Assembly (NCBI GenBank): GCA_029066805.1
Contig: JAIEFT010000032.1
Coordinates: forward strand, 12,718 to 55,892
Direction: 5' to 3'
Length of the DNA stretch: 43,175 nucleotides
Source: Clostridiales bacterium
Lineage (GTDB): Bacteria > Bacillota > Clostridia > Christensenellales > Pumilibacteraceae
Shown here: in pieces, positions 1 to 26,754 of the stretch
Layout of the letters: the number at the start of each line of letters is the position of its first letter
Position numbering within the stretch: the stretch's first letter is position 1
Notes under the pieces: model-generated
Database searches by the model: none
What the model was told of the DNA's origin: nothing
The model's input: the letters and a program-made list of their open reading frames with translations, nothing else
Translations under genes and position numbers: made by a program

Positions 1-3000
1 CTCAACGCCCAGTCCGCAACGATAAAGCGTCCGCTTTCGTCAAAGCACATTTCGATGTCGAGAGCGCCGTCAGCAAGCGCTTTAATAAGCGCGGCACGCG
101 AATACCACCTACCCTCGACGTAGAAGTGCAAGTCCACAACGTTGTTATCGTCCGTTCCGTTAGGACCGCCGGGTGCGTACCAAACGTTGTACTCGCCGTT
201 CTCGTTGGTAACGGTAGCCGTCGTTCTGGTAAACACAGTTACAGCCGCATACCGCTCGCCAAAGCTTGTGCCGTCGAGCACGTTGGGAACGACTGCTCCA
301 AGCCCGTCCTCGGTGATGTTTTCCATATCGAGCGTGCTGTAGTGATACTCTGTTTTGCCATTGACCGTATCGGCGGAAACCTGAGAAAGCACGGTCTTGT
401 TGTGCTCGCCGTCGTCGTCAACCGCGATAAGCTTGATGTCGATATCAAGCGCGGCGTTGTTGAGCGCGGTCGTCTTGCCGCTGTTAATCTCTTGTGCGGC
501 AAGATCCGAACCTACTATATACCTGTTGCGCGTTATGTCCGCATCGCTTGCCGATTTTATGTACCACAGCGGATTGCTCGCATTAAATCCGTTCTCATCG
601 GACTCGTTCAGCACGGGCGCAGTGTTTAGCACCTCGATACGCGCATAACCAAGCGACGTACCGCCGTTGTTGTCCGTTACGAAGAACACAACGTACACGC
701 CGCCGGCTATCGCCTTGGTAGAGCTTATAGCCTTTACCGTAATCTCGCGGCGGCTGATTACCTCCGCCGTTATGTAGTTGGTAACATTAACGCTGTATTC
801 ATCGGTTATTTGAATTTCGGTGTAATTTGTATTGAGGTTGTCAAACGACGCAAATACAAGATTGTCAACTCTGTTTCCGGCTGCGTCAACTAAAATATTA
901 GCATTAAAATCGTCGATAAACGCCTTGTTAACAACCGCAACGCCGCGCGACACCATGTATTCGGGCACGTCGCTGTCGTGATCGACCATAATACCCGTGT
1001 TGTTGCCGTTGCCGTTGGCTAACAGCGAAACAACATTGGGCGTGATTATATCCTCGCCCTTGCCTATGGGCTTGACAGAAAGCTCGCTATAGAACGCAGG
1101 ATTTTTCACATTGGGCTTGGTGTTTACAACCTCTATGATTATGCGCACCGCAGAATAGCTTGAAACATCGGACGAACCGTTGCCGTAGCGGTCGCGTATA
1201 GCAAGGTCGATAACGGCAGGCTGTGTCGTACGGTTGAGCGCCGTAAGCATGACAAAGTCCACGGAATATTCAAGACTGCCCATCTTTACCTTCGTGCCGA
1301 AGTTAACGTCCACGAAGTTGGTGGTGTTTGCTCTGCTGTTGTAAAAATTATTGAACGTTGTGGGATTGTACGTATACGCGTCTGTTCCGGCGGAAGTGCG
1401 ATCAAAGAACAATCTGTCGCGCGGTACATTCTCGGTAGAAATGCCGCTGTTTGCAGCAGTTCCCGCCGCGCCCGAGCTAACTCTGGGAACAGCGGTGTTA
1501 GCCCTAATCGAGCCGAGGAAGTCTGACGCATTTTTATTATACGGCGTTTCGTCCGTGTTGCCGAACAGACCGGCAAACTGCCTATCTCCGTCCGCCGCAT
1601 TGGTTGAGCCCGTGGTAAACATGCCCGTGGTCGTGCTGTAACGACCGCTGTAGCCGTTGAGGGTAAAGCCACCTGTTACCTCGTTTACGCCGCACACGGT
1701 CATGTCGTAGTCAAGCGCAAAGTCGTACGGCGTTATCATAACAGTGCCGCCAAGCGGGATTTTATATGTGAATGTGGGAATGTCGCCGTCGGCTGAATAC
1801 GAGTATAGGCTGTATGCGCTGTCGCGTTCGGGATCACCGAATTTGGCGACGTTGCCGCTGTCGTCCTTAAGCACATGAAGCGCAGTATTGTTAACACGAA
1901 CGGCTATATTAATGTTGCTTATACCGTTGCCCGTTATGTCTGTCACGCCCGCTTGCGCATAAACATATCTGTTCATTGTAGCGGATTTGAGCGTAATCTT
2001 AAGTCCGTTTACCATGTAGTAATCGGAATCGTCGGAATCGGCAAGCGTAACAAAATAATATCCGTTAGCGTTTGTGCCGCTACCTACCACTACGCGTCCG
2101 CCGCCGAATACGGAAGTTGCAAACTTGTTCTTTTCTATATATATAGGTAGATATTCCGCTTTGAAATACTGGTTTTCCCAAACGTTGGCGGAAATCTGCT
2201 TACACTCGTTTGCCGGGCAAACGCTTTTGACAACGCTTTCCGGTGTAGCGGAAAGCAGAAGTAAATCGTTGAGCTTGTTGGCGGTAGCGCCGTAGCTGCC
2301 CCAGCTAGCAAGACCGTTGGTTGTAGCAAAGCTATCGCCGTCGATAGCGAGCGGCTGTAAGCCGTCGGAAGTGAGCGCACCCGTGTTGTTACCGTTTGCG
2401 TCCGCCGCTCTGTACTTGCCTACAACGTGCGAGCCGCTGTAGTTGATTGCCATAGGCGCAAAGTAGAAGCTGTCGCCCACCGCGCCAGCCGCCGTCGGGA
2501 AAGTCGTAACCGCAGTTTGCGCCGTTACCGAATGCGGCGCTGTGACGGTAGCCAAAGGTTTGTGCGAATTACTTGCGGAATCACCCACGGTAAACGCGAG
2601 CGGCAACCAAATACCGTTATCGAGCGCGTCGCAATTATCCTTGATATGCAACATCAAATAGAAGTGTCCGGGCGCGTTGGCACGTGCGGGCGTATACTGC
2701 GAAAAGCTCGCTCTAAGTCCTGTCACGGTAAGCGTATCGCCCGAATACGTATAGCTCATAAACGCCTCGCGCTGGTTGATACTGCCGGGCGACGTGGTGT
2801 AATAAACTATATTATCCTTAAATTCCGTTGTAGTACTTGTTTGCGCCGAGCTTGTGAACGCGTCGGATTTTTTTGTGCCCTTATTGTAATAGCTAGCGTT
2901 TGGCGACGCGAGCGCAACGGTGTTTTCCAGTCTGTCAAGCGCGATAAACTCATTTTTAGGCACAATCACGTCGGTGATTGTGTGAGTAGCAGACGTGATG

Positions 3001-5126
3001 CCCGCAGAGTTATCGATATCGGAGAAGTAAGTGCCAAGCTTGAGCGCCGTAGTAGTGCCCACGCCGACGTTTACGATATTACTCACGCCCGATTTAAGGA
3101 CGGGACGTGTATTTTCCATTTTAAACACTACTTGGAACGAATACGACTGTGTCGTAACAGTATCCCACAACGCAACGTTTGTGCCGTTGCACGCAGCCTT
3201 TTCAACAAGATAAACCGTAACAGGCAAAAACTGATATCCGGGCGTGGGAGTAACGCATTCAAGCGAGATTTGGCTGAACGCGTTGGCTATCGAGCCGCTG
3301 CCCGACGCCGGAATAGAGGCAACCTTATCCGTAGAGCTATCGACCTGCGTCACCTTAAACAGTCTGCTTGCTCCCGTTATTTTGGAAGTGTCGGGGATCG
3401 AAATAACAGCCTGATCGTATGTCGTAGAAAAACCGCTTAACAAATTCGCCGCGGAAATAGTTATTTTTCCGCCGAGCATAAGCGTTTGTTTAACAAACAG
3501 CGTTTGCACACCGCCGCCGTTGGGGTTGTAAATGCTGGAAGCCGTAGCCGCCGTAGGATCGCCGTGAGCCGGTGCGTTTGCAGCCGAAGCTCCGACTAAA
3601 CACCCTATCGTGCTAGCTGTGCCTGCCGAATTGACTACCGTAGCGTTTGGCGCACTGTTTTGCGTTATGGTTTCCCTCGGCACTTTCAGCGTAAATGAAA
3701 TAGTGCTGCACGCTCGCGTGGAAGTCCCCGTGCCGTAAGTATCGCGTATCTTGGTATACAGCGTTACCGTATTACCTGTGGTAGAAGTAGCCGTAACGCC
3801 GGTCTGCCCCGCTCTCGGGTACTTAATCGGCTTTATAGTGAACGACGTATTGCCGCTTGTGGTCCAGGAGAAATACTTGCTTGCGCTGACCGTGCAAGCA
3901 GAATCCAAATACAAACCGCTGTTGGTCGTAAACTTGCTGTACGTATCGTATGCGCCCGACGTGCCGTCACTGAAAGCAAGCGCGGTTTTATTTGTGTCGG
4001 GATCTGTTGCAAGGTTGTTCACCGATATGGTGGTCGAAGACCCGGATGCTCGCGTTCCCAACGTAGCCGAATAGTTATTACCGGTAGGAGGTTGGTTGAT
4101 AACCGTTATTACAGCCTTGCCGTCGCCCGTCCACGCCGTCTGCGTGGTGTTAGACAAAACGGTAAGACCGCTCTTTATATAGTTGCAACCGCCGCCCGCA
4201 GGTCCGCCGTTACAGCTTGCTGTCGTATAACCGCCCGCGCCGCCGTAGTAACCGCCGCCGCCGCCGGCACCGCCCGCGCCGCTTGCTACCGAACCGCCCG
4301 CGCCGCCTTGCCCAAACGAACCTGCACTGCCGGCAACAGTAAATGACGACCAGTGCGTCGTTCCATTGGAACACACGCCGCCGCCGGACGTTGTGCCGCC
4401 GCCTGCCGTGTCGGTATACGACGCGCTGTATGTAGCGCTTCCGCCGCTCGGCCCGCCTGAACCGCCTACTGCTGTTGTTGCGGCATAACCGCCGCCGCCA
4501 CCGCCGCCGCCTACAATCAAAACCGCGCCGGTGTTGCCGGAGAGTGAACTAAGTAGTCCAGAAGCTGTAGCAATATGCGTAGCGCCGCCGCCTGAACCTG
4601 TTCTATGACTGCACGTTCTTCTGTATTGAGTCTGTCCGCCGCCGTTGTATCCGCCCGAAGTGACCGCATTTTGGGTAGCAGTCGCAGTTACACCCTTGCC
4701 GCCGACATAAATATAAAGTGTGGTTGTAGACGTAATAGTGTATGTAGCTTTTGCATAACCGCCGTATCCGCCCAAAATGGTGGTGGTAGTACCCGTACCG
4801 CCTTGCGCACCCCAAACCTCGAGGTTGTATTTACCAACCGGCAATGTAACACCGTAATAATTGCCCGTACCTGTAAAAGTAAAAGTATCGCCGTCGACTA
4901 ATGCAGTGCTGGCATAATTGGTAGTCGTACCTATTGTAGGAGTACGGTTAGTAGCGGACGTTTTTATCTCGCCCTGCTCCGCATTGTCTACACTCGCTCG
5001 CCTCGCACCGTCGAATCCGAGCGCAAACGTAAGCGCCAGCGCGAGCGCGGCTATAATAGCCATAGTCAATATCACTACGCGCTTTAAAATTCTATTATTC
5101 TTATCGGGACTGTTTGATCGCTTCAT
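1..5126 (-). CDS. Giant glycine-rich cell-surface protein, N-terminal part (runs off the window)
   Basis: An open frame of about 1,708 codons runs without a stop from ATG at 5126 to the window edge, so the C-terminus is missing. GGAGAGG lies six bases before the start. Residues 16-37 form a hydrophobic signal or anchor segment behind a basic N-terminus. Residues ~75-320 look like the glycine-rich domain of the ALK/LTK family (Pfam Gly_rich/ALK_LTK_GRD): they contain LEVWGAQGG, GGYGGYA, LYIYVGG, GGYNGGG, GGGATHI and VGGGGGGGGG. The rest is Thr/Ser/Asn-rich, beta-type sequence. Segments beginning NTRPVL (~671), NTKPN (~1335) and NTAPVL (~1499) resemble starts of cadherin-like or bacterial Ig-like modules. 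A role in adhesion or the surface layer is inferred, and no catalytic motif is visible. It is transcribed away from the PadR-membrane gene. Any cell-wall anchor would lie outside the window. Confidence 0.8.
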   Translation of the reverse strand, partial: MKRSNSPDKNNRILKRVVILTMAIIAALALALTFALGFDGARRASVDNAEQGEIKTSATNRTPTIGTTTNYASTALVDGDTFTFTGTGNYYGVTLPVGKYNLEVWGAQGGTGTTTTILGGYGGYAKATYTITSTTTLYIYVGGKGVTATATQNAVTSGGYNGGGQTQYRRTCSHRTGSGGGATHIATASGLLSSLSGNTGAVLIVGGGGGGGGYAATTAVGGSGGPSGGSATYSASYTDTAGGGTTSGGGVCSNGTTHWSSFTVAGSAGSFGQGGAGGSVASGAGGAGGGGGYYGGAGGYTTASCNGGPAGGGCNYIKSGLTVLSNTTQTAWTGDGKAVITVINQPPTGNNYSATLGTRASGSSTTISVNNLATDPDTNKTALAFSDGTSGAYDTYSKFTTNSGLYLDSACTVSASKYFSWTTSGNTSFTIKPIKYPRAGQTGVTATSTTGNTVTLYTKIRDTYGTGTSTRACSTISFTLKVPRETITQNSAPNATVVNSAGTASTIGCLVGASAANAPAHGDPTAATASSIYNPNGGGVQTLFVKQTLMLGGKITISAANLLSGFSTTYDQAVISIPDTSKITGASRLFKVTQVDSSTDKVASIPASGSGSIANAFSQISLECVTPTPGYQFLPVTVYLVEKAACNGTNVALWDTVTTQSYSFQVVFKMENTRPVLKSGVSNIVNVGVGTTTALKLGTYFSDIDNSAGITSATHTITDVIVPKNEFIALDRLENTVALASPNASYYNKGTKKSDAFTSSAQTSTTTEFKDNIVYYTTSPGSINQREAFMSYTYSGDTLTVTGLRASFSQYTPARANAPGHFYLMLHIKDNCDALDNGIWLPLAFTVGDSASNSHKPLATVTAPHSVTAQTAVTTFPTAAGAVGDSFYFAPMAINYSGSHVVGKYRAADANGNNTGALTSDGLQPLAIDGDSFATTNGLASWGSYGATANKLNDLLLLSATPESVVKSVCPANECKQISANVWENQYFKAEYLPIYIEKNKFATSVFGGGRVVVGSGTNANGYYFVTLADSDDSDYYMVNGLKITLKSATMNRYVYAQAGVTDITGNGISNINIAVRVNNTALHVLKDDSGNVAKFGDPERDSAYSLYSYSADGDIPTFTYKIPLGGTVMITPYDFALDYDMTVCGVNEVTGGFTLNGYSGRYSTTTGMFTTGSTNAADGDRQFAGLFGNTDETPYNKNASDFLGSIRANTAVPRVSSGAAGTAANSGISTENVPRDRLFFDRTSAGTDAYTYNPTTFNNFYNSRANTTNFVDVNFGTKVKMGSLEYSVDFVMLTALNRTTQPAVIDLAIRDRYGNGSSDVSSYSAVRIIIEVVNTKPNVKNPAFYSELSVKPIGKGEDIITPNVVSLLANGNGNNTGIMVDHDSDVPEYMVSRGVAVVNKAFIDDFNANILVDAAGNRVDNLVFASFDNLNTNYTEIQITDEYSVNVTNYITAEVISRREITVKAISSTKAIAGGVYVVFFVTDNNGGTSLGYARIEVLNTAPVLNESDENGFNASNPLWYIKSASDADITRNRYIVGSDLAAQEINSGKTTALNNAALDIDIKLIAVDDDGEHNKTVLSQVSADTVNGKTEYHYSTLDMENITEDGLGAVVPNVLDGTSFGERYAAVTVFTRTTATVTNENGEYNVWYAPGGPNGTDDNNVVDLHFYVEGRWYSRAALIKALADGALDIEMCFDESGRFIVADWAL

Positions 5127-5151
5127 AAGCTACCTCTCCGTAATGAACTTG

Positions 5152-5212
5152 TTAACAATTTGTTCACAATTACATGGATATACATAATAATATTAACAAT
5201 TTGTTCACAATT
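5152..5212. promoter_or_regulatory. Paired 20-bp repeats, probable operator
   Basis: The 20-base sequence TTAACAATTTGTTCACAATT occurs identically at 5152-5171 and 5193-5212, 41 bp apart (about four helical turns). Each contains the palindrome AACAA-T-TTGTT. One copy sits in the -35/-10 spacer of the giant-gene promoter and the other lies downstream of the predicted start site. Cooperative repressor binding is an inference; the binding protein is unknown, though the divergent PadR gene is an obvious candidate. Confidence 0.5.
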
Positions 5213-5218
5213 TGTCAA
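5190..5218 (-). promoter_or_regulatory. Sigma-A promoter of the giant surface protein gene
   Basis: On the minus strand TTGACA (5213-5218) is followed by a 17-base spacer and TAATAT (5190-5195). This places transcription start near 5183, giving a leader of roughly 55 nt before the ATG at 5126. The spacer overlaps one copy of a 20-bp direct repeat, which suggests repression at this site. Confidence 0.75.
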
Positions 5219-5281
5219 TACTTTTAAGGCAAATAGTTTACTATAATGTAGAAAAGTGAGGAATCTCTTCCTTATTTAATT

Positions 5282-5338
5282 CTGCATTCTGCATTCTACA
5301 TTCTGCATTCTGCATTCTGCATTCTACAATTCTGCATT
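5282..5338. repeat. Heptamer tandem repeat (CTGCATT)8
   Basis: Eight consecutive units of CTGCATT are present. Units 3 and 7 read CTACATT (unit 7 with one extra A). It follows a half-site, GTGAGGAATCTCTTCC at 5257-5272, that resembles the ends of the palindromic elements at 8704 and 41596. It lies between the divergent promoters. Confidence 0.85.
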
Positions 5339-5394
5339 ATCTTCCCTTTTCGCTAAAAATAGCGGTTATACACTACATAAAACTCAAAAAAACA

Positions 5395-5423
5395 TTGACA
5401 TATTTTTATTTATATTGTATACT
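5395..5423 (+). promoter_or_regulatory. Sigma-A promoter of the PadR operon
   Basis: A perfect TTGACA (5395-5400) is separated by 17 bases from TATACT (5418-5423). The expected start near 5430 rules out a TTG at 5415 as the translation start and supports the ATG at 5469, about 40 nt into the transcript. Confidence 0.85.
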
Positions 5424-5468
5424 ATACTTTGTATATTGCTATTAGTGTACGCATACATAGAGGTGACC

Positions 5469-7193
5469 ATGGCAGAAAGCGATTTGATTCGCGGCAACGT
5501 AGATACCATAATCCTTAAAGTTCTGTACGAGGGAGACCGCTACGGCTATGATTTGATCAGGCAAATCAATGCGCGCAGCGACGGGCAGTGGGAAATTAAA
5601 CAGCCCACCGTTTACGCTTGCCTGAAACGATTGGAAAAGCAGGGCTTTATCACGTCGTATTGGGACTCCTCCGAATCGGACGGCGGCAGACGCAAATACT
5701 ACTCTCTTACCGAAAGCGGCAGAGAGGTTTTCCTTAAGTACAAAAGCGAGTTCGAGCGCGCCAATGCGCTGTTTGGCGGTTTAATATCCGGCAGCGAACC
5801 TACGGTATTCATTCAGCCCACCGACGACTATTCTGACGTCGAGGAGGAGGGCTATTCCCTGCCCAAGCGCAAACCTAAGCGCGCGCCCAAAAAGCAGGCA
5901 GAGGACAAGGATGACAAAAAAGCAGAGCAAAAGAATGAAGCTGCTGCGGACACGCCTATTCAGCCTATAGTGCAAGAACAGCCCGAGCAACCCGCTCAGC
6001 CGGTCACGCCGACCGAGCCCGCCGCAGAGCAGGAAGAAAAAAAGACAGCGGCGCAAACGTTGTTCGAGCTTGCCGAACAACAACAGGTCAAGCAGGATGT
6101 GCCTGTCACAAAAAAGGAAAAGCCGACCGAGGCTCGCGAGGCGCTTGACCCCAAACTCATAATAGAACAGTATTTCGCCGCCGAAACGGGCGAAAGCTAT
6201 TCCGATATTCAGCGTAAAAACACATTCTCATCGGCAGAACCAATCGCGTCGGCAGAACGCAAGGTCGTCGTTCCACCGCCCGCGCGGACAGAGCAAAAGC
6301 CTGTCGCGCCTGCGCCCGCGCCCGTTCAGCCTAAACAACCCGCGCAGACAGCGCCTGTACAGCCTGCCCCCGCACGCCCTGCACAACCGACGCTTCCCAC
6401 ACCTACTCCCGATCGTCCTATGCTTGTGCCGGCGGCTATACCGGGGTTTGAATCCTCGCCCGCGCTGTCCGAGCAAAAGGCTGCTGCGCCCGCCGTCGGG
6501 TTTGCCGCAGAAGAATCGCCCGCACGCCGTGAGTACAAAACGGTACTCGAAGACCTTGTGGATAGGTTTGAGGTAGCTACGCCCGATATTCGCACTACGG
6601 CGACTACTGCGACGCAAGAGCAAGCGGCTACCGCCGAGCTTGCGGAAAACAGACAGCTCGGCAAGGTCGAACAAGCCGTACGCGAACTCGGCAACGACGT
6701 AACGATTCGCAATCACAACAATTCCGCTAAGGAATACACCGGCAAAAACTTCTACTACTGCAACCGACTTATGATGACGCACTACACCATTATGTGCGCA
6801 ACAATGTTTTTGGTCGGGCTTATATTGTTCCTCACCTTCCGCATGGGATTGGGCATGACAATGCAGTACGACTATGCTCTGTATATCTGCGCAGGACTGC
6901 TGCCGATATTCATGTTCATAACCGCTGTCATCTGCTACGCCAACAATCCCGACAAAACAAAGCGCATCAACATTAACTTTAAGTTCTCGCTGATTATTCG
7001 CTTTGTAATAATGCTTCAGGTAGACGTTATAGTATACTGCATGAACCTTATGTTCAATATGCCGATAACATTCTCGCTGTATTACGTTCCGTCAATCGTT
7101 CTGCCTTGCGCCTATGCCCTATTCATTCCGATCAGCGAAATCATTTTCATCACGCTGTTGCGCTCGGGCAAATATTCGGACACGACAAAATAA
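5469..7193 (+). CDS. PadR-family winged-helix regulator fused to a C-terminal membrane domain
   Basis: The 574-residue protein starts at ATG 5469 behind AGAGGTG; a longer reading from TTG 5415 would begin inside the promoter. Residues 1-105 form a PadR-type winged helix with a recognition stretch of the form KQPTVYACLKRLEKQG and a wing ending GRRKYYSLTESGREVF. Residues ~120-380 are a Pro/Gln/Glu/Ala-rich low-complexity linker. Residues ~435-566 hold about four hydrophobic segments (near 436-458, 464-489, 502-530 and 536-566). Typical PadR proteins are soluble and 100-200 residues long, so this is a membrane-tethered variant. It leads a unit with a tyrosine recombinase (18-bp gap) and a Spo0A-like protein, and it is divergent from the giant surface protein gene. 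Control of that gene, or of its own promoter, is inference. No signal-sensing domain was recognised in the membrane part. Confidence 0.85.
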   Translation: MAESDLIRGNVDTIILKVLYEGDRYGYDLIRQINARSDGQWEIKQPTVYACLKRLEKQGFITSYWDSSESDGGRRKYYSLTESGREVFLKYKSEFERANALFGGLISGSEPTVFIQPTDDYSDVEEEGYSLPKRKPKRAPKKQAEDKDDKKAEQKNEAAADTPIQPIVQEQPEQPAQPVTPTEPAAEQEEKKTAAQTLFELAEQQQVKQDVPVTKKEKPTEAREALDPKLIIEQYFAAETGESYSDIQRKNTFSSAEPIASAERKVVVPPPARTEQKPVAPAPAPVQPKQPAQTAPVQPAPARPAQPTLPTPTPDRPMLVPAAIPGFESSPALSEQKAAAPAVGFAAEESPARREYKTVLEDLVDRFEVATPDIRTTATTATQEQAATAELAENRQLGKVEQAVRELGNDVTIRNHNNSAKEYTGKNFYYCNRLMMTHYTIMCATMFLVGLILFLTFRMGLGMTMQYDYALYICAGLLPIFMFITAVICYANNPDKTKRININFKFSLIIRFVIMLQVDVIVYCMNLMFNMPITFSLYYVPSIVLPCAYALFIPISEIIFITLLRSGKYSDTTK

Positions 7194-7211
7194 GCAATAA
7201 CGTAAAATATA

Positions 7212-8315
7212 ATGAGTAATTATTTTGACGAAAGAAACGAAAAAACCTTAGCCGCTATCGAAGATATACTCGACACTATGCCCGAATTTGCTCGGGAGTT
7301 CAATGTAGGTATTTCCATGCGGACTATGCCGCTTACAAGGCTCGGATATCTAAGAGATATTCGGGTCTTTTGCGATTACCTGACTAAGCGCAAGTTCAAG
7401 CACGACAATCTGATGATTATAGACCTCACCGTCAATCACCTAGCCAAAATCACACCTACAGATATCGAAGCATTTATAGACTACCTATCGTCGTACACCG
7501 TGGACGGAAAAAAGCATTCCTGCAAAGAGCACGCCAAAGAGCGCAAAGTGTCGTCATTGCGCGCGCTGTTTAAGTATTTCTATAAACGCGAAAAAATAGA
7601 CCACGACGTAATGACCAAAGTCGACACGCCCAAAATCCACCTAAAACCCATAGTTCGCCTCGACGTGAACGAGGTTGCGGATATTCTCGACGAAGCCGAA
7701 ACAGGCGACAACCTTGTCGGCAGGCAAAAGTCATTCCACGACGCAACCGCCGTGCGCGACGAGGCTATGCTTTCCCTGTTTTTGGGCACGGGCATTCGTA
7801 TCAGCGAGTGCGTTGGGCTAAACCGCACCGACGTCAACTTCGAGGACAACAGCTTTATGGTCACGCGCAAGGGCGGAAACACATCCGTTCTGTATTTTTC
7901 GGAAGAAGTTGCGGACGCGCTTCGCAAATACATAGACTGGCTGGACGGGCAAATTGCCGAAGGCACGCCGTTCGGCAAGCGCGTGCACGACCCAGACGCT
8001 CTGTTTATTTCGGGCAAGGGCGGACGCATGACCCCGCGCGCCGTGCAATTGATGGTTAAAAAATACGCGAAGGTCACTACCCCGTTTAAAAAAATCACCC
8101 CGCACAAGCTGCGCAGCACATACGGCACAAACCTGTACCACGAAACGCACGACATATTTGTGGTGGCGGACGTTTTGGGGCACAAGGATGTTAACACCAC
8201 GCGCAAGCATTACGCCGCCATGAGTGACGATATACGCCGCGACGTGGTAAATAAGGTCAAGCTTCGCGACAAGGACAAGATAGACGCCAATAAGGACGGC
8301 GACGATGACGAATAA
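7212..8315 (+). CDS. Tyrosine recombinase (XerC/XerD-like integrase)
   Basis: This 367-residue site-specific recombinase has an N-terminal SAM-like DNA-binding domain (~40-130) and a C-terminal catalytic domain (~150-340). The catalytic set is complete: Arg196 in GTGIRISE, Lys220 in RKGG, His298 and Arg301 in HKLRST, His324 in GHKD, and the nucleophile Tyr334 in RKHYAAM. The last ~30 residues are charged (KDKIDANKDGDDDE). Length is somewhat greater than the ~300 of XerC/XerD. The upstream RBS is weak, suggesting translation coupled to the PadR gene 18 bp away. It could be the chromosome-dimer recombinase or a dedicated recombinase. No attachment sites or phage genes were seen around it, so a resident Xer-like role is more likely than a prophage integrase. 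Confidence 0.9.
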   Translation: MSNYFDERNEKTLAAIEDILDTMPEFAREFNVGISMRTMPLTRLGYLRDIRVFCDYLTKRKFKHDNLMIIDLTVNHLAKITPTDIEAFIDYLSSYTVDGKKHSCKEHAKERKVSSLRALFKYFYKREKIDHDVMTKVDTPKIHLKPIVRLDVNEVADILDEAETGDNLVGRQKSFHDATAVRDEAMLSLFLGTGIRISECVGLNRTDVNFEDNSFMVTRKGGNTSVLYFSEEVADALRKYIDWLDGQIAEGTPFGKRVHDPDALFISGKGGRMTPRAVQLMVKKYAKVTTPFKKITPHKLRSTYGTNLYHETHDIFVVADVLGHKDVNTTRKHYAAMSDDIRRDVVNKVKLRDKDKIDANKDGDDDE

Positions 8316-8700
8316 CGATATGTCGCTGCTGTTAAACGACCAAATAATAAACAGACTAACAGATATTTACTTGGATTTTATCGGCGCGCAAAGGAACAGC
8401 CTGCCCTACCGCAGACTTAAAAACGCAGTCATCCTAAGCGCATTTAAATACGACAATATGCAGGAAGTTTACGCCGAGCTCGAAAAGATAGACGATATTT
8501 CCGCCGGCGAGATAGAACGCGAAGTAACAGGCTTGATAGAGAACCTTACTAAGCCTATCGAGGACCTGTTCAACAACGCGTACTGCTCCGAAGCGCATTG
8601 CGGCTTTATGCCACGGCATAAAACCACTAACGATAAAGTCGCCTTCCTAGGTAAAACTTTGCTGTATATACTGGAAACGAATTACCGTACCTCTATATAA
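8305..8700 (+). CDS. Small protein resembling the Spo0A C-terminal DNA-binding domain
   Basis: This 131-residue protein overlaps the end of the recombinase gene by 11 bp, with AAGGACGG as RBS, so the two are translationally coupled. Its pattern follows the Spo0A effector domain. An N-terminal IGAQRNSLPYRRLKNAV stretch matches the region of Spo0A that leads into YLRDAI. A central segment, AGEIEREVTGLIENL, sits where Spo0A has the recognition helix around SRVERAIRHAIE. The tail, TTNDKVAFLGKTLLYIL, is comparable with PTNSEFIALIADKL. No receiver domain precedes it. The DNA-contacting residues are poorly conserved, so this may be a divergent or non-binding relative. The assignment rests on my pattern recognition and is not certain. 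Confidence 0.5.
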   Translation: MTNNDMSLLLNDQIINRLTDIYLDFIGAQRNSLPYRRLKNAVILSAFKYDNMQEVYAELEKIDDISAGEIEREVTGLIENLTKPIEDLFNNAYCSEAHCGFMPRHKTTNDKVAFLGKTLLYILETNYRTSI

Positions 8701-8703
8701 AAA

Positions 8704-8780
8704 GGATGAGATCCATCGTTCCTCGGGATAGCCTGCGGCTGCTACGTAGGATATTCCGAGCACAGTGAGGAATCTCATCC
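8704..8780. repeat. Palindromic interspersed element, also a probable bidirectional terminator
   Basis: The ends GGATGAGAT and ATCTCATCC are inverted repeats, and an inner pair CTCGG/CCGAG brackets a C/G-rich core. It lies between the convergent Spo0A-like and thrS genes and is followed by TTATTTATTT on the plus strand. The same termini recur at 41596-41679 and a half copy lies at 5257-5272. Confidence 0.65.
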
Positions 8781-8816
8781 TTATTTATTTCTTATTTCCG
8801 CATTCTTAATTCCGAA

Positions 8817-13735: not shown

Positions 13736-14230
13736 CTACTTCAATCCCCGCTTTACGCCCTGCGCGGATAATGCGTGGCAGATTGCCGCGGCTAGCGCGT
13801 CGGCGGCGTCGTCGGGCTTGGGCGTTTCTTTAAGTCTTAACAGATTTTTTACCATAAACTGCACTTGAGTTTTGGCGGCTGTGCCGTTGCCCGTTACTGT
13901 GGACTTAATCTGTAGCGGTGTGTACTCGAACAGCTTGTCGCAGATTTTAGCACATGATAATAATATTACTCCGCGCGCCTGCGCGACCTTTATACCTGTT
14001 GTAATATTGGTGTTAAAGAACAATTCTTCCACCGCTATCTCGTCGGGCTTGATTTCGTTGACAAGATCGGCGATTTGCGTTTCTATCCTTTTAAGCCGCT
14101 CTACAGTGGACAGCTTGGCGGGCGTTTCCACCGCGCCGTAGTCGAGCGGGCGAAGCTTTCCGTTTTCGCTTTCTATAATTCCGTACCCGACTATCGCATA
14201 GCCGGGGTCGATTCCGAGTATTCGCATCAC
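13736..14230 (-). CDS. ruvC: Crossover junction endodeoxyribonuclease RuvC
   Basis: This ~164-residue nuclease resolves Holliday junctions together with RuvAB. Acidic active-site residues are visible: Asp8 in LGIDPG, Glu68 in VEELFF, and Asp141/Asp144 in PDDAADALA. The start is GTG 14230 or ATG 14227; both follow AGG within the last codons of the ygjP gene, only three bases away, so translation is probably coupled. It ends a co-directional block ruvA-ruvB-queA-tgt-ygjP-ruvC. That unites all three resolvasome genes but leaves ruvC separated from ruvAB by three other genes. Confidence 0.97.
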   Translation of the reverse strand: MMRILGIDPGYAIVGYGIIESENGKLRPLDYGAVETPAKLSTVERLKRIETQIADLVNEIKPDEIAVEELFFNTNITTGIKVAQARGVILLSCAKICDKLFEYTPLQIKSTVTGNGTAAKTQVQFMVKNLLRLKETPKPDDAADALAAAICHALSAQGVKRGLK

Positions 14231-14233
14231 AAA

Positions 14234-16076
<1,843 letters not shown>

Positions 16077-16108
16077 TTACAAGAAGCAAGCAAGAGCAGG
16101 AAGTCCGA

Positions 16109-16157
16109 GTGCCGACCGACGGGAGTGTAGAACCACCTACATGACCGAGGGGGGCAC
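16109..16157. repeat. Small palindrome between queA and tgt
   Basis: Outer GTGCC/GGCAC and inner TGTAG/CTACA arms enclose the loop in the spacer between queA and tgt. C-tract bulges interrupt the stem. It might be an RNA processing site or an interspersed repeat; there is no T-run for a classic terminator. Confidence 0.45.
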
Positions 16158-16182
16158 GACGGCTGACGAACTATTGCGCCGC

Positions 16183-17205
16183 TTATTGGAAGAAACAGGC
16201 ATCTCCGAAAGAGAAAAATCTATACTTTTCCTCAACAGCCGTCTTATAAATTTCGAGAGTTTTTTCTCTGCCTAACAGCGCGCTGACAAGCATTATCAAT
16301 GTTGATTCGGGCAAGTGAAAGTTGGTTATCAGTCCGTCCACCGCCTTGAACTTGTACGGCGGATAGATAAAAATACTTGTGTCGCCATGCCCCGCGTGTA
16401 CTATTCCGTCGAGCGTAGAGCTCGATTCCAGCACGCGCACCGACGTTGTACCTACGGCTATAACTCGCCTGCCGCTTTTTCTTGCATTGTTTATCTTGTT
16501 TGCCGCTTCGTCCGTCACACAGTAGTATTCGCTGTGCATTTTGTGGTTTTCCACCTCGTCGGTCTTTACCGGCAAAAACGTACCCAAGCCGACATGAAGC
16601 AGCACCTCGGCAAACTCCACGCCCTTGGCTTTTAGCTCGTTTATCAGTCTGTCGGTAAAGTGCAAACCCGCCGTGGGTGCGGCGCTTGAGCCTACGTCGT
16701 GCGCGTACACTGTCTGATATCTATCGATACTCTTCAGCTGTTTATGAATATAGTGCGGAAGCGGCACTTCGCCTATGCGATTGAGGATAGTCTCAAACAC
16801 GCCGCTGTAGCTGAACCTAAGCGTCCTTGCGCCGTCCTCGCCTTCCTTTATTACCTCGCCTGTCAAGTCGTCGGCAAAAGTAAGCATCGTGCCTTTTTTT
16901 GCGCGCTTTGCGGGGCGACACAGCGTTTCCCAAGTATCTCTGTCTATGCGCTTGTGCAGCAAGAACGATATTTTTGCGCCCGTGCCCTCTTTTATTCCCG
17001 TGACGCGCGCGGGTAAAACTTTGGTGTTGTTTATTACGAGCAAGTCGTCCGGTCTGAGCAGCTCGGGCAAATCAAAAAAATGCCGATGCGTGACCGTATC
17101 GGAATTTTTGTCATACACAAGCAGCCTCGAGCTGTCGCGCGGCTCTATGGGAGTTTGCGCTATAAGCTCGCTCGGCAAGTCGTAGTAAAAATCGCTCTTG
17201 TTCAT
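16183..17205 (-). CDS. queA: S-adenosylmethionine:tRNA ribosyltransferase-isomerase
   Basis: This 340-residue enzyme converts preQ1-tRNA to epoxyqueuosine-tRNA using the ribosyl group of SAM. Family motifs include [12 protein letters not shown] at the N-terminus, [39 protein letters not shown] and [16 protein letters not shown]. Length is normal. Its ATG overlaps the ruvB stop (ATGA), showing tight coupling. The typical Firmicute order ruvA-ruvB-queA-tgt is kept. Confidence 0.98.
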
Positions 17206-18245
17206 TTGTCGCCGTCCGTGTCTAAGAATGAAAGCTGAGTTACCGCCTTTTTAGACGGCTTTACGCCCAAATGATCGAACGCCGCTTTTAGCGCTATCCT
17301 GCCGCGCGGCGTGCGCGCTATAAAGCCGAGCTGTATAAGATACGGCTCTATTACGTCTTCTATAGTGCCCGCGTCCTCGTTGATAGCGGCGGCGAGAGTA
17401 TCAAGCCCCGTCGGACCGCCGTCGAACTTTTCCACAAGTGCCGACAGCAGTTTTTTGTCGTTGTAGTCAAGTCCCAACGGGTCGATTTCCATGTCGTTAA
17501 GCGCCTTGACTGTTATCGGAAGAGTTATGTTTCCGTCGCCGATTACCTGCGCAAAGTCGCGCACGCGCTTGAGTAATCTGTTAGCTATTCGGGGCGTGCC
17601 GCGAGAGCGCGAAGCGAGCTCTGCCGCCGCGTCGTCGTCGATCGTGATTTTGAGAAGCTTTGCCGAGCGTTTGATTATGCGCACCAGGTCTGTAGGAGAA
17701 TACGGTTCTAGCCTGCAAATAACGCCGAATCTGTCACGTAACGGTCCGGTCAGCATGCCCGCTCTTGTCGTCGCGCCGATCAGCGTAAACTTGTTTAAGT
17801 TAAGTCTTATCGAGGTTGCACCTGCACCCTTGCCTGTGGAAATGTCCAGAACAAAGTCCTCCATTGCGGGATACAGCACTTCCTCTATCGAGTGGTTGAG
17901 CCTGTGGATCTCGTCGAGGAACAGCACGTCACGCTCTTGCAGATTTGTAAGCAGCGACGCGAGGTTGGCGGCGCGCTCAATGCCCGGTCCGCTCGTAACC
18001 TTAATTTCCACACCCAATTCCGCGGCTATAATATGCGCGAGCGTAGTCTTGCCTAAGCCAGGCGGTCCGTACAGCAAAACATGGTCGAGCGCCTCGCCGC
18101 GCGCCTTGCTTGCCGCAACGTATACCTTGAGGTTGGCTTTGACCTTGTCCTGCCCGATATAATCGTCAAACGTAGTCGGACGGAGCGAAACATCTCCGTC
18201 GTCGGTGACTAGTTCCTTGTTTGTGATAAAACGATTGTTTTCCAT
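17202..18245 (-). CDS. ruvB: Holliday junction branch-migration helicase RuvB
   Basis: This 347-residue AAA+ motor drives branch migration with RuvA. It shows [11 protein letters not shown], Walker [10 protein letters not shown] (~60-68), Walker B LDEIHRL, sensor and arginine-finger stretches ([19 protein letters not shown]), and a C-terminal winged helix ending with TPRGR. It starts seven bases after ruvA without a strong RBS and overlaps queA at its end. Confidence 0.98.
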
Positions 18246-18252
18246 AGTTTAA

Positions 18253-18828
18253 TTATAAGTTACGCAAAGCCGCCAAAACAATATCTTCCGTAGTCATGTC
18301 GGGTTTGGAAACCTTTTTGACTGCGGCTTCCGCTTCCTTGCGCTCGTAGCCCAATCCTATAAGCGCGAGAACAGACTTTTCGTCCGGCAACTGTTCGGGT
18401 ACGACCGGAACACCGCCGTCGCCTGCCGTCGGTGCGACCTTGCCCTTAAGCTCCAATACAATGCGCTCCGCCGTCTTTTTGCCCACGCCCTTAATGGTGG
18501 AAAGCGCGGCGGCATTGCCTGAAGCTATTGCCGAAGTAAGCCTGTCCGCCGCCATGCCGCTTAGTACAGCAACGGCGAGCTTTGGACCTACGCCCGACAC
18601 GCCGATGAGCAGCAAAAACAACTCACGCTCGGCATAAGAAGAAAATCCGAACAGCTCCAACGCATCGTCGCGCACGGCGAGGTACACGGGCATTTTGACT
18701 TCCTGTTTGCGACTCGCATCTGCGCAAGCAAAAGCGGACGCCGTGAGCGAAAAACCCACGCCGCCGCAATCTATCACTACTTTATTTTCACTTACCGCGG
18801 CAACCTTGCCCGATATGTAGTCGAACAT
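18253..18828 (-). CDS. ruvA: Holliday junction DNA helicase subunit RuvA
   Basis: This 191-residue junction-binding subunit has an N-terminal OB fold (MFDYISGKVAAV). Two helix-hairpin-helix motifs follow (IGVSGVGPKLAVAVLS and IKGVGKKTAERIVLELK). A C-terminal UBA-like domain (ALIGLGYERKEAEAAV) contacts RuvB. AAAGGTG lies nine bases upstream. It is the first gene of the ruvA-to-ruvC block and sits 55 bp after recA. Confidence 0.97.
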   Translation of the reverse strand: MFDYISGKVAAVSENKVVIDCGGVGFSLTASAFACADASRKQEVKMPVYLAVRDDALELFGFSSYAERELFLLLIGVSGVGPKLAVAVLSGMAADRLTSAIASGNAAALSTIKGVGKKTAERIVLELKGKVAPTAGDGGVPVVPEQLPDEKSVLALIGLGYERKEAEAAVKKVSKPDMTTEDIVLAALRNL

Positions 18829-18883
18829 AAATTTTTACACCTTTTACAAAAGCAACGCACGGCTATGCCGGCACGCACAAGGT

Positions 18884-19963
18884 TTACTCTTCGTCGGTAT
18901 CCGTGTCAGAGCCTTCTTCAAACGGCAAACCGCCTTTTTGCGAGATAAGCTCTCTGATTTTGCCGTCAAGCTCCTCGAGTAGCTCGGGGCGCGACAAGAT
19001 GATCTGTTTGACCGTTTCTCTGCCCTGACCGAGCCGCTCGTCGTTATACGAGAACCACGACCCACTCTTGACGATAAGTCCTTGGTCAATAGCCATATCG
19101 AGAATGCAACCTTCGTTGGAAATGCCCTTGCCGAATATAAGGTCGAACTCTGCCGTCTTGAAAGGCGGTGCAAGCTTGTTCTTTACTATCTTGACCTTGG
19201 TGCGGTTGCCTATAACGTTGCCGCCATCCTTTAGCGCTTCGCCTTTGCGTACGTCGAGCCTGACGCTGGCGTAAAACTTGAGCGCTTTACCGCCGGGCGT
19301 AACCTCGGGATTGCCGTACATAACGCCTATCTTTTCGCGAAGCTGGTTTATGAATATTATGCAGGTCTTGGTCTTGTTGCAAACGCCCGCAATCTTGCGC
19401 AGCGCTTGCGACATGAGACGTGCCTGAAGTCCTACGTGACTCTCGCCTATCTCGCCATTGATTTCCGCTTGCGGCGTGAGCGCGGCAACCGAGTCGATTA
19501 CGACAACGTCCATAGCGCTTGAACGCACCAAAGCTTCCGCAATATCGAGCGCCTGCTCGCCGTTGTCCGGCTGACAGATATAAAGCCTTGATAAGTCAAT
19601 ACCCAAGTGTTGAGCATACACAGGATCGAGAGCGTGCTCCGCGTCGATAAACGCTACCATACCGCCCGTCTTTTGCGTTTCCGCGATCACGTGCAAAGCG
19701 AGCGTAGTTTTACCGCTTGACTCCGGACCGTACACCTCCACTATTCTGCCGCGAGGAAGTCCTCCGATGCCGAGCGCGAGATCGAGCGCAAGACAGCCTG
19801 TGGGAATGGCGTCCACCTGCGTGGCAACCGAATCGGTCATGCGCATGATAGAACCCTTGCCGTAAGTCTTTTCGATTTGAGCAATGGTCTCCGCAAGCGC
19901 CTTCTCTTTTTCGGACTGCGTCATTTCGGTGTTGTAAACCTTGAATTTTTCCTTCTTATCCAT
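18884..19963 (-). CDS. recA: Recombinase RecA
   Basis: This 359-residue strand-exchange protein and SOS co-protease has Walker [10 protein letters not shown] and Walker [11 protein letters not shown]. The L1/L2 DNA loops and the [19 protein letters not shown] region are conserved, and the C-terminal tail is acidic (SDTDTDEE). The N-terminus is about 15 residues longer than in E. coli RecA. AGAGGT precedes the ATG. I saw no GAAC-N4-GTTC LexA box in the 43-bp gap from the cinA-like gene, so any SOS control would act further upstream. Confidence 0.99.
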
Positions 19964-20006
19964 AATATACCTCTTATGAGTTTTTTAGCTTAAAAAGTGT
20001 TACAGC

Positions 20007-21299: not shown

Positions 21300-21303
21300 T
21301 CGG

Positions 21304-21894: not shown

Positions 21895-21936
21895 TGCCGT
21901 ATGAATCTCCTTGCGATAAGAACGTAGTATTTTAGC

Positions 21937-23277: not shown

Positions 23278-23309
23278 TGTATCTCCCCGATATGTAAAGT
23301 TTTTCTGCG

Positions 23310-26300
23310 TTAATTATCATCAAGGTCGTGCCCAAACACTTCCTTGTACTGCTCGACTGTCATCAAAACATCGCGCGGCTTGTTGTTGCCCGTAATAGGT
23401 CCGATGTACCCCACCGCTTCCATATTATCTATAATGCGCGCCGCTCTTGCATAGCCTATAGAGAACCTGCGCTGAACGACCGACGTGGATATCTGTTTCG
23501 CTTTGATAGCGTGCGCCATGATCCTCGACGACAACGGGTCGAGCTCGCCGCCGCCTTCGCCGCCACCGCCGCCGCCCGAGCTTCCGCCCGAGACAAACTT
23601 TTCGGCTTCCACGTCAAAGTCGCACTCGTAGTTTTCCTTGAGATGGTTGACGACCGAAAGCACTTCCTCGCCGCTGACAAACGAGCCCTGCACACGCTTG
23701 GGCGCGTACGCGTCCTGCGGATAGAACAGCATGTCGCCGTCGCCGGTAAGCGCTTCCGCGCCTACGACGTCGATAATGATACGGGAGTTAGTCGCATCGG
23801 GAACTTTAAACGCTATACGGCTTGTCAGGTTTGCTTTGATCGTGCCGGTAATGACGTCCGCCGAAGGACGCTGCGTAGCCACAATAAGGTGAATACCTGC
23901 GGCACGCGCAAGCGCCGCGATACTGCTTATTTTGCTTTCTATCTCGCCCGACACGGAAGACTGCATTAGGTTGGCAAGCTCGTCGATTATTATTACAATG
24001 TGCGGAAGCTTTCCTATTTTGCCGCTCTTTACGTCCGGCATGCTGTTGTATTCCGCAAGCTTGCTGCACGCGTACTTTTGGAGCACGGTGTAGCGCCTGT
24101 TCATTTCCTTGTCCGCCCACTTGAGCGCGTTTAACGCTTCGCCGGGCTCGGTTATGGTCTTTTCAAACAACAAATGCGGCATTCCGCGGAACTTACTGAA
24201 CTCCACGCGCTTGGGGTCGATAAGAATAAACCTCAAGTCATCGGGACTGGATTTGTACAAAAGACTTACAATAAGGCTGTTAAGCCCTGCGGATTTACCG
24301 CTACCGGTCTGTCCCGCAATCAGCAGGTGCGGAACTTTTTCCAAATCGCATACGACCAGCTCGCCGCCTATGTCCTTACCTACCGAAAACACCATAGGCG
24401 ATTTATGCTTGACAAATATCGGCGAATCCACAACCTCGCGCAAGCCGACTATTGCCTTGCTCTTGTTGGGAACTTCTATACCTACCGCACGCTTGCCGGG
24501 TATGGGCGCTTCTACGCGCACGCCGCTGACGGCTGCAAGCTCGTAAGCAATATCCGCACAACGCGACTCAATCGCCTTAACCGACGTGCCGGACGGAACT
24601 TCCAGCTCGTACCGCGTGACCTGCGGACCGGGCACTATATTAATAACATGCACCTGCGTCTTTAAGAACCGCGACACTACGTCCTCGAGCGTCTGCGCGT
24701 TGGCTTGCAGCTCTTCCTGTGCCGAATCGACCTTGTCGTATATCTTAAGAAGATCGTACGGCGGAGATTTGTAGTTGTACTGTCTGTACTTTTTGCCGTC
24801 CTGCAACGGAACAACCGTGTTAGCCGCCTGCTCCTGCAATACGCCCTGTATAGTCATCTGATTTTCGAGCGGCGCATTGCTCTTACGCTGTCTTGCGGGC
24901 TTTACGGGCTCTACAGCGGGCTTAATCGGCGCGTCTGCCGAAATATACATACCGGACAAATCCTCGCCTGTAAACACGTCTCCTTCGTCAAAACTGTTTT
25001 CGCTAAGGTCGATAGCCGGCTCGTCCGATATCCTAAGTCCGTCGAGTATACCGTCGTCGATATCCACATCGGGCGCGATTTCCTCTATGTCCGACTGACC
25101 GTACGTCGGTTCATACGGCTTGCTGCCGTCCAATATCTCCTCTTGCTCCTGAAGCGCACCGCCGCCCTGTCCGACGAACGGATTGAGCGCGTCGCTTGCG
25201 TCGAAAATATCTTCTTCTTTAAACTTGTCCGTCTCGAGCGGCGGAACACGCGTCGGCTCGGGCTCGACTATAGGTTGCAATTTCGACTCGAACTCGTTGC
25301 CCAAAAAGAAGTCTTCCGCGCTCTGTGCCGCGGGCATGATCGGGGCTTGCGTCGGAGCTTCGATTATGGTCTGTTGAACGGGCGCTTGCATCACGGGCTG
25401 AACGGGTTCGTTATGCACCGGTAACGTAACGGGCGACGCAGGCGACATGGGTTGTGATGCGTCGATTATAGGTTCAACGTGCTCAAGGCGCATATTTGTT
25501 TTGGGCATGCCAAACGCCGGACGATACACGTCGCTTCCGTCATATATCGGCTCGCGCGCGGGATCGGGCACGGGTTCTGTCTTTGGATGCTCGTCTACTA
25601 TAGTCTCTATACCGACGTCGTTGAAATGAATATTCTTGTCAGGCGGGAAATACAGCGCGTTCAAATTGTTGGGCATGCCATCGTAGTCCACCCTGCGCGG
25701 ACGCTCGGAAGATAGCGCGTCGTTGTATACTCGCGCCGCAGGCTCGATCGCTTCGGGCATGTACGACGCTGCGGGTTGTTCGGGTATAGGCTCGGGCGCA
25801 GGCTCTTGTTCCACAGGCTGCTGCGCCGCTGCATTTGCTTGGCGGAACTCTTCCGCGGCTTGGCGCATAATCGCCTCTTTATCGCTGTAAAGCCGCACGC
25901 GTGCCGCCGCCGCAACAGCGTTATGGTCGGCGGGCGCAGGCTCGTCAAACACAGGCGAGTCGGAATAGTCGCTTATCTTGCGCGCCGTGCTAATAGGTAT
26001 ATCGGACGCAGCGCCGGTATCAACCGAAATTTCGGGCGAACCGCGCTCGATAGTACCGGTAAACAGTCCGGGCAGCGGCGTTGCGTCCACCACCATTTGC
26101 GGACCTACGGGTTCGACAACAGTCTCCTGCTCGGGCTGTTCCTCTTTGGATTTTTTGTCGCCTCTGTTCTTGATGGCGGCACGAAGCTTTTTGAACGCCG
26201 ATGTCATCAGCAGAATATCCAAAATAAGCGCAAGCGAAAACAAAACATACGCCGCCGGTTCTGTGATAATCGCCTTAAAGCCATACGCAATAAGCCCCAT

Positions 26301-26699
26301 TATTACTCCGCCGACAGAGTACTTACAAGCATATACCGATTCGATATAGCCCGAAAAATTCTTGTTCAAAAACGCGTGCGTAGACGCAAGCTGCAAAATA
26401 ATCAAGCCGAAAATAACGGCAAAAGCGATCCCCACCTTTGTTTTAACATCAGCTTGAGCTTTGCGCCCGCCGAGAATAAAAATGCCCAAAATAAGCGTAG
26501 CAATAAGAATCGGGTACGACGCAATGCCGAACGTGCCGAGCAGCACGCCGAAAATAGCCTCACTGAAAACGCCGAGTATGGGCTTGATTACGATACACAG
26601 CAACAAAAATGCAGAGATGACGATTAGCGTCACCCCTAGTATATCATGACTTCCGTTGTTTGTCTTGTTCTTCTTTTTACGATTTCTATTGTGTGCCAC
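23310..26699 (-). CDS. ftsK: DNA translocase FtsK/SpoIIIE family
   Basis: GTG 26699 is used because GAGGGTAG lies just upstream. The product has 1,129 residues. Four membrane helices lie in ~20-165. A long acidic, Pro/Glu-rich linker spans ~190-620. The motor has Walker A GQTGSGKSAG (~794) and Walker B IVIIIDELANL (~900). A glycine-rich break (SGGSSGGGGGGEGGG) separates it from the DNA-reading winged helix (~1060-1129, with QRRFSIGYARAARIIDNME). It pumps chromosomal DNA at septa. SpoIIIE of B. subtilis is ~790 residues, so the long linker accounts for the extra length. Synteny with spoIIIE suggests the sporulation paralogue, but sequence alone does not decide this. Confidence 0.96.
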   Translation of the reverse strand: MAHNRNRKKKNKTNNGSHDILGVTLIVISAFLLLCIVIKPILGVFSEAIFGVLLGTFGIASYPILIATLILGIFILGGRKAQADVKTKVGIAFAVIFGLIILQLASTHAFLNKNFSGYIESVYACKYSVGGVIMGLIAYGFKAIITEPAAYVLFSLALILDILLMTSAFKKLRAAIKNRGDKKSKEEQPEQETVVEPVGPQMVVDATPLPGLFTGTIERGSPEISVDTGAASDIPISTARKISDYSDSPVFDEPAPADHNAVAAAARVRLYSDKEAIMRQAAEEFRQANAAAQQPVEQEPAPEPIPEQPAASYMPEAIEPAARVYNDALSSERPRRVDYDGMPNNLNALYFPPDKNIHFNDVGIETIVDEHPKTEPVPDPAREPIYDGSDVYRPAFGMPKTNMRLEHVEPIIDASQPMSPASPVTLPVHNEPVQPVMQAPVQQTIIEAPTQAPIMPAAQSAEDFFLGNEFESKLQPIVEPEPTRVPPLETDKFKEEDIFDASDALNPFVGQGGGALQEQEEILDGSKPYEPTYGQSDIEEIAPDVDIDDGILDGLRISDEPAIDLSENSFDEGDVFTGEDLSGMYISADAPIKPAVEPVKPARQRKSNAPLENQMTIQGVLQEQAANTVVPLQDGKKYRQYNYKSPPYDLLKIYDKVDSAQEELQANAQTLEDVVSRFLKTQVHVINIVPGPQVTRYELEVPSGTSVKAIESRCADIAYELAAVSGVRVEAPIPGKRAVGIEVPNKSKAIVGLREVVDSPIFVKHKSPMVFSVGKDIGGELVVCDLEKVPHLLIAGQTGSGKSAGLNSLIVSLLYKSSPDDLRFILIDPKRVEFSKFRGMPHLLFEKTITEPGEALNALKWADKEMNRRYTVLQKYACSKLAEYNSMPDVKSGKIGKLPHIVIIIDELANLMQSSVSGEIESKISSIAALARAAGIHLIVATQRPSADVITGTIKANLTSRIAFKVPDATNSRIIIDVVGAEALTGDGDMLFYPQDAYAPKRVQGSFVSGEEVLSVVNHLKENYECDFDVEAEKFVSGGSSGGGGGGEGGGELDPLSSRIMAHAIKAKQISTSVVQRRFSIGYARAARIIDNMEAVGYIGPITGNNKPRDVLMTVEQYKEVFGHDLDDN

Positions 26700-26754
26700 T
26701 TTTCTACCCTCGGAAAAAGTCAATAGGAAAATTACGCAATTCTACGCACTAACC

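Follow-up and report, generated by a model that had tools for sequence, protein, structure and literature searches.

In this work, a tyrosine recombinase gene (xer) and its neighbours were analysed in a 43,175-nt stretch of contig JAIEFT010000032.1 from Clostridiales bacterium (Pumilibacteraceae, GCA_029066805.1), and this whole stretch is called the window below. Most likely the product of xer is a housekeeping Xer with its ordinary role, placed in a setting for which no description was found. We consider it probable that it is the single Xer of chromosome dimer resolution at a palindromic dif site, and that a PadR-type protein with a membrane domain (PadR-TM) is its recurrent genetic partner. 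This recurrent partner is the new element. The pairing of the two genes, the copy number of dif, its closeness to the GC-skew turning point, the presence of FtsK and the single copy of this Xer type are read directly from the genomes. We hypothesize that a single 28-bp dif near the terminus is acted on by one recombinase of the XerS-like kind, with FtsK as its presumed activator. In the window's genus, dif lies on another contig than xer, and the xer gene comes directly after that of PadR-TM. PadR-TM would most likely set xer expression, or the position of Xer or of the DNA, from a membrane signal, and a third gene, ORF3, would probably be on the same transcript as xer. If this is true, PadR-TM adds to FtsK a further layer of control over dimer resolution, one that many families of a single Clostridia order have kept, and through this second membrane factor dimer resolution would be coupled to the envelope in a new way. 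The order is represented here mostly by metagenome assemblies, and a dimer-resolution recombinase and a dif sequence are also proposed for it; the dif pattern could be used as a simple terminus marker in these draft genomes. The features concerned are as follows.

5395..5423, plus strand: padR promoter, TTGACA-17-TATACT, as read from the sequence
5469..7193, plus strand: PadR-TM, 574 residues, with a PadR winged helix (about 5511-5732), a Pro/Glu/Lys/Ala-rich linker and a predicted membrane domain (about 6783-7127)
7212..8315, plus strand: xer, XerS-like single tyrosine recombinase (PF00589)
8305..8700, plus strand: ORF3, 131 residues, likely a remote Spo0A_C relative by profile-profile comparison
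23310..26723, minus strand: ftsK, 1137 residues, with a gamma domain (about 23358-23546) above the cut-off

The comparisons below used 20 genomes of the genus (own genome included) and 41 outside it, 61 altogether, and an order-wide set of 151 genomes. Two sets of xer loci were also used, one of 80 named loci (7 from the genus, 73 others) and a second of 17 genus and 20 non-genus loci.

Recombinase and its presumed activator

The recombinase of the window matched PF00589 (E 4e-30), and its best NCBIfam match was XerS. The residues R196, K220, H298, R301, H324, and Y334 were invariant across 26 xer homologs, and we take them to be the catalytic residues. This Xer type was present in 142 of the 151 order genomes and was single in 141 of them; G054 carries an additional fragment. 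None of the 21 genomes searched had a XerD-family protein above the 330-bit cut-off, XerC not being part of that search. The other recombinases of the own genome were weak on XerD, with 58 and 41 bits. The gamma domain of FtsK was above its cut-off in 20 of the same number of genomes (21), and the own copy is the ftsK gene of the window, which matches the NCBIfam FtsK equivalog below its cut-off. In a review, FtsK is named as the controller of the Xer reaction (PMC5357621), and it would presumably be the expected activator of Xer here. A gathering of crossover and dimer-resolution genes was also observed, with ruvC, ruvB, ruvA, recA, and ftsK (13736-26723, minus strand) within about 18 kb of xer.

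The dif-like palindrome

Outside the genus, a near-perfect palindrome, ACTATTCGCAAAA-N6-TTTTGCGAATAGT, was observed upstream of xer. It is 28 bp long with a 6-bp centre and is of the type TTCGYAAAA-N6-TTTTRCGAA. Its core, KCGYAAAA-N6-TTTTRCGM, was found in 48 of the 61 genomes (exactly once in 47) and in 121 of the 151 order genomes (once in 111, twice in 9, three times in 1, and not at all in 30), and the reversed control pattern of this core in 6 and 13 genomes of the two sets, respectively. Among the 80 named xer loci, the pattern was present in 57, namely in 57 of the 73 non-genus loci, where its distance upstream of xer was mostly 30-2600 bp, and in 0 of the 7 genus loci. The second set gave the same kind of distribution, with the pattern in 15 of the 20 loci from outside the genus and in 0 of the 17 from within it. 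The own genome contains a single copy at position 27379 of contig C56, a different contig from that of xer. The GC skew changes sign at dif, and the cumulative peak was 2.0 kb away both in the own genome and in G013. The skew was followed in three genomes, over 32 kb in the own genome (4.5 kb of contig beyond dif) and over 180 kb each in G013 and G017. The closeness of dif to the GC-skew shift-point is a published pattern (PMC3025954).

In all three genus genomes examined, dif was located 11-28 kb from mutS-, mutL-, miaA-, and ynbB-like genes. Genes of the same kinds, whose labels we assign from sequence, adjoin xer in several other genera. No match to xer or PadR-TM was found in the dif/mutS/mutL stretches of the three genomes. 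Thus, with dif near the mutSL-like genes and neither xer nor PadR-TM there, xer and PadR-TM parted from dif together.

Linkage of PadR-TM and xer

The three plus-strand genes are closely packed, as the sequence-only reading of the window had described, with an 18-bp gap between padR and xer and an 11-bp overlap between xer and ORF3. The sigma-A promoter of padR had been called perfect; it consists of TTGACA (5395-5400), a 17-bp spacer and TATACT (5418-5423), and is not quite so, as TATACT is one base from TATAAT. Upstream of padR, TTGACA was observed in 16 of the 17 genus loci and in 7 of 14 other loci, and the ATG start of PadR-TM at 5469 is preceded by gaggtg. When relatives were compared, the neighbourhood proved to be conserved, and PadR-TM was directly 5' of xer in 19 of the 20 genus genomes. 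The gap between them is 567 bp in G017, and the contig of G006 breaks off within xer.

In a search with a profile of the membrane domain, PadR-TM was found, each time as a single copy, in 69 of the 151 order genomes, the one of G028 being a fragment at a contig end. Of these 69 genomes, 68 also had an xer match, and in 57 both were on one contig. The distance in the 57 pairs was within 15 kb in 55 (10 families), within 5 kb in 51, and within 3 kb in 41. Where it was 5 kb or less, PadR-TM was downstream on the same strand in 30 genomes, upstream and divergent in 20, and upstream on the same strand in one, from the window's genus. In several of the upstream-divergent loci, dif lies between PadR-TM and xer. 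The gene caller overlooked xer in L112 and L115, and the adjacency there was taken from the comparison of the 20 genus genomes instead. In the short locus L210 of the cultured relative Pumilibacter, no padR-TM was observed.

A tree built from 41 xer proteins, whose rows take in PadR-TM up to 13 kb from xer, required seven changes of the PadR-TM/xer arrangement, and well-supported branches force at least two changes for each of the two common arrangement states. Where dif is away from xer (the window's genus, 8 genomes of family f3, and one of f20), all 10 genomes compared had PadR-TM at most 5 kb from xer. In 6 of the f3 genomes, dif was 29-55 kb from xer and PadR-TM was still within 5 kb. This comparison comprised 37 genomes among those listed, for which all three positions were given and xer and PadR-TM were on one contig. 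G119 has two dif sites, of which the one on the xer contig was used, and G066, also with two, was left out; three f3 or f20 dif sites were on contigs other than that of xer.

Points against the assignment and inherited synteny

Several observations weigh against a single Xer of dimer resolution with PadR-TM as its partner. The window's xer scores 180 bits on NCBIfam XerS, below the cut-off of 267. Another recombinase of 300-317 residues was found in 4 of 13 genus genomes (G001, G003, G004, and G012); at 208-219 bits it is below the XerD cut-off of 330 and outscores the window's xer (144 bits), and a second Xer enzyme is possible in these four. Our confidence in the assignment, still good, was lowered because of these XerD-like recombinases. 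The exact dif pattern is absent from 30 of the 151 genomes and from 3 of the 20 of the genus. In the window's genus xer is distant from dif, unlike in the described single-recombinase modules, the GC-skew turning point of G017 is 15.5 kb from dif, and recombination at the site is inferred. PadR-TM had no match in 82 of the 151 genomes, and because of this it is not required for Xer. Moreover, PadR-TM and xer are 72 and 111 kb apart in two same-contig genomes and on different contigs in 11 genomes, and genomes of the latter kind had been excluded from the comparison with dif away from xer. Finally, the stretch within 8 kb of xer contains three other recurrent gene families more frequently than PadR-TM (51, 36, and 31 vs 29 of 93 loci), in a count which pools two collections with some genomes present twice (L080/L219 and L086/L208 have identical xer). 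Two of these families we read as a LexA-like and a GTPase-like protein. Because three other families recur near xer more often, part of the PadR-TM/xer linkage is inherited synteny. Regarding the XerD-like extras of about 300 residues, they are located at G001:C22, G003:C5, G004:C1, and G012:C26/C27/C72, and the three copies in G012 are perhaps mobile.

The best-placed alternative is that PadR-TM, xer, and ORF3 are functionally unrelated and are only held together in a slowly rearranging terminus region, which we regard as quite possible, although on the whole not expected. The more frequent recurrence of the three other families argues for it, as does family f1, in which PadR-TM is up to 14 kb from xer and once 111 kb. 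However, PadR-TM and xer stayed close through seven arrangement changes on the xer tree, they left dif and the mutSL-like genes jointly in the genus, and the six f3 genomes with distant dif have kept PadR-TM beside xer.

The PadR-TM protein

The N-terminal 100 residues or so of PadR-TM match PF03551 (E 4e-22, 78.4 bits, cut-off 27), and this PadR domain matches many PadR crystal structures, including PDB 3f8b. It is followed by a charged, proline-rich linker of about 350 residues and by a C-terminal membrane domain, predicted to have four helices. In 31 of 31 members scanned, four or five hydrophobic segments were observed at the C-terminus, and the fifth of the window's protein precedes the true ATG. 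From these segments the protein is predicted to be membrane-anchored, in agreement with the sequence-only reading. The membrane domain gave isolated single-member matches and no consistent family in Pfam, and no HAAS match was found in PadR-TM by Pfam searches. That PadR-TM is a dedicated membrane partner, either a DNA-binding tether or a membrane-sensing switch, which would hold xer or dif or set the Xer level at the division membrane, is a tentative proposal and we would rather not expect it to hold. As side observations, open frames of about 980-1005 residues in the order relatives G100, G135, G159, and G052 point to a highly variable linker length. A candidate PadR operator, GTATA/TATAC, was enriched in the genus but was rejected, as it mostly coincides with the -10 element and is scarcely present outside the genus.

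Relation to known systems

XerS/difSL of streptococci and lactococci is similar in having one recombinase, of about 356-367 residues, and XerS is the best NCBIfam match of xer; also similar are the site beside the gene, as in most non-genus loci here, and the presence of FtsK (PMC5357621). The differences are that the window's xer is below the XerS cut-off, the site of the genus is far from the gene, and PadR-TM is a neighbour. The difSL site has 31 bp with an 11-bp centre (PMC5357621), whereas the palindrome here has 28 bp, its arms being symmetric around a centre of 6 bp. XerH/difH of Campylobacter and Helicobacter also has a single recombinase near its site, but the site sequence is another one (PMC5357621).

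An N-terminal PadR domain is common to the PadR/LmrR regulators, and the linker of about 350 residues with the four-helix membrane domain is peculiar to PadR-TM. The nearest published idea found for PadR-TM is the HAAS-PadR dyad of envelope stress, where PadR is coupled to a membrane protein and an alternative to two-component signalling is proposed (PMC11237479). The dyad consists of a stand-alone PadR beside a membrane HAAS protein (PMC11237479), whereas PadR-TM is one chain with no HAAS match and with xer as its neighbour. The terminus-binding protein MatP, which touches the membrane, offers only an analogy, of DNA binding combined with membrane contact, and no sequence relation is claimed. 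In a search of one literature library, neither a PadR-Xer pairing nor a membrane-bound DNA-binding protein like PadR-TM was described among the matches listed.

ORF3

ORF3 was found in 19 of the 20 genus genomes searched, all but G007, and in 0 of the 41 outside the genus. It follows xer in 15 of the 20 and is elsewhere in four (G001, G003, G013, and G017). The sequence-only reading had assigned a Spo0A-type domain to it. In profile searches of Pfam, NCBIfam, and PDB no significant match was obtained, the 131 residues contain no receiver domain, and Spo0A_C (PF08769) was matched by 1 of 19 family members, at E 0.22 and not over the cut-off. The comparison of profiles by hhalign did point to a remote relation, with 89% and E 2e-6 for the ORF3 family against a set made of Spo0A and stand-alone Spo0A_C proteins from these genomes. 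Against the smaller set that also served for the controls, it gave 77% and E 2e-5, and the best of 15 column-shuffled controls gave E 0.06. The family profile thus resembles Spo0A_C, and ORF3 is likely a genus-restricted remote relative of it.

Besides a true Spo0A, the genus genomes contain small stand-alone Spo0A_C-like proteins (L293-L312; C8:63393 and C35:69978 in the own genome), some of them below the Pfam cut-off. ORF3 homologs away from xer (G013:C22 and G001:C1) are near what we take, from sequence, to be ParB-like and RsmG-like genes, perhaps near the origin. A 19-nt inverted repeat with GAGATCC/GAATCTC ends lies 3' of ORF3 (8699-8785), and a similar sequence is found in part before padR (about 5255-5275).

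Giant surface gene and its motif

On the other side of padR, the following features are read from the minus strand.

3..5126, minus strand: giant glycine-rich surface gene, from its start until it runs off the window, with an N-terminal hydrophobic anchor and an ALK_LTK_GRD domain; a neighbour, whose membership in the module is not implied
5152-5166 and 5193-5207 (region 5152..5218), minus strand: two copies of the operator-like motif TGAACAAATTGTDAA, over or beside the giant promoter
5213-5218 (-35) and 5190-5195 (-10), minus strand: giant promoter, hexamers read from the sequence

The divergent position of the giant gene, noted from the window alone, was found again in 14 of 17 genus loci (11 by gene calling and 3 by BLAST). 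The contigs of the other three (L103, L107, and L108) stop within about 0.6 kb, and the divergent 106-residue piece of L107 had no BLAST match. In the non-genus loci read, PadR-TM and xer had no giant gene beside them. Past the window end, the contig has a 10-base N run, after which a same-strand ORF goes on to 5783, leaving the length of the gene in the own genome uncertain. The giant proteins of three relatives have 3877-3979 residues, each with a C-terminal hydrophobic segment and a short tail, and LPxTG was not found in them.

The giant promoter bears two elements of the TGAACAAATTGTDAACAA type in the 11 genus loci displayed, one copy being degenerate in some, and the TTGTKAACAA boxes are paired at an 11-bp period. 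With one mismatch allowed, the motif was present in 19 of the 20 genus genomes, which had at most six copies each, and also in 6 of 21 genomes outside the genus. By eye, 19 of 23 same-genus motif sites in the fetched loci are followed by an ORF whose product has a giant-like signal anchor; at L317, L319, and L342 a simple caller gave no long ORF, and the sequence of L321 stops at the site. Of these 19 sites, about 7 belong to the copy next to PadR-TM; about 12 are on other contigs, some of these possibly being broken-off neighbours. In the own genome, sites are at C7:57324 (a clear second locus), C26:17866, and C61:30836 (one mismatch). No copy of the motif was found at the promoter of padR. 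The giants seem to form a small separate regulon, and the giant gene of the window is a stable divergent neighbour.

It is conceivable, but improbable, that the tandem TTGTKAACAA boxes of the giant genes are read by ORF3 or by some other stand-alone paralog of the Spo0A_C kind. Spo0A binds tandem 0A boxes, the boxes here are paired at a regular period, and both ORF3 and the motif occur in 19 of the 20 genus genomes, with ORF3 in 0 of 41 and the motif in 6 of 21 others. However, TTGTKAACAA is not a known 0A box, and other stand-alone Spo0A_C proteins occur in these genomes. Where ORF3 is elsewhere (4 of 20), its contig carries no motif site; furthermore, G007 has the motif with no ORF3 match, and G003 has ORF3 with no motif.

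The sequence-only reading had suggested that the locus could link an envelope signal to control or switching of the adhesin. In such a control unit, PadR-TM would sense the envelope and repress or activate the giant gene and the recombinase would invert DNA to switch it. In favour of this are the divergent position of the giant gene in every genus locus long enough to include it, the match of the PadR domain to known repressor structures, and two imperfect inverted pairs (84% and 89%), possibly due to chance, that span the giant promoter, with arms in genes 4.3 and 4.6 kb apart. However, no closely spaced inverted pair of at least 16 nt was found at the giant promoter. The recombinase type occurs once per genome, and its single dif-like site is elsewhere, near the terminus on another contig, and switching of the adhesin is not supported. 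PadR-TM and xer are also neighbours in non-genus loci where the giant gene is lacking, and the giant paralogs on other contigs share an operator-like motif which the padR promoter does not have. Such a combined unit is very unlikely; control of the giant gene by PadR-TM or ORF3 is conceivable. Least probable of all is that the palindrome serves at the xer promoter as the operator of LexA, PadR, or some other regulator and is not dif. Most non-genus loci do have it upstream of xer, in some cases together with a downstream LexA-like gene, but it is mostly present in one copy per genome near the GC-skew turning point and stays there where xer has moved away.

Tandem attctgc-like heptamers were also observed at 5278-5336, between the giant and padR promoters.

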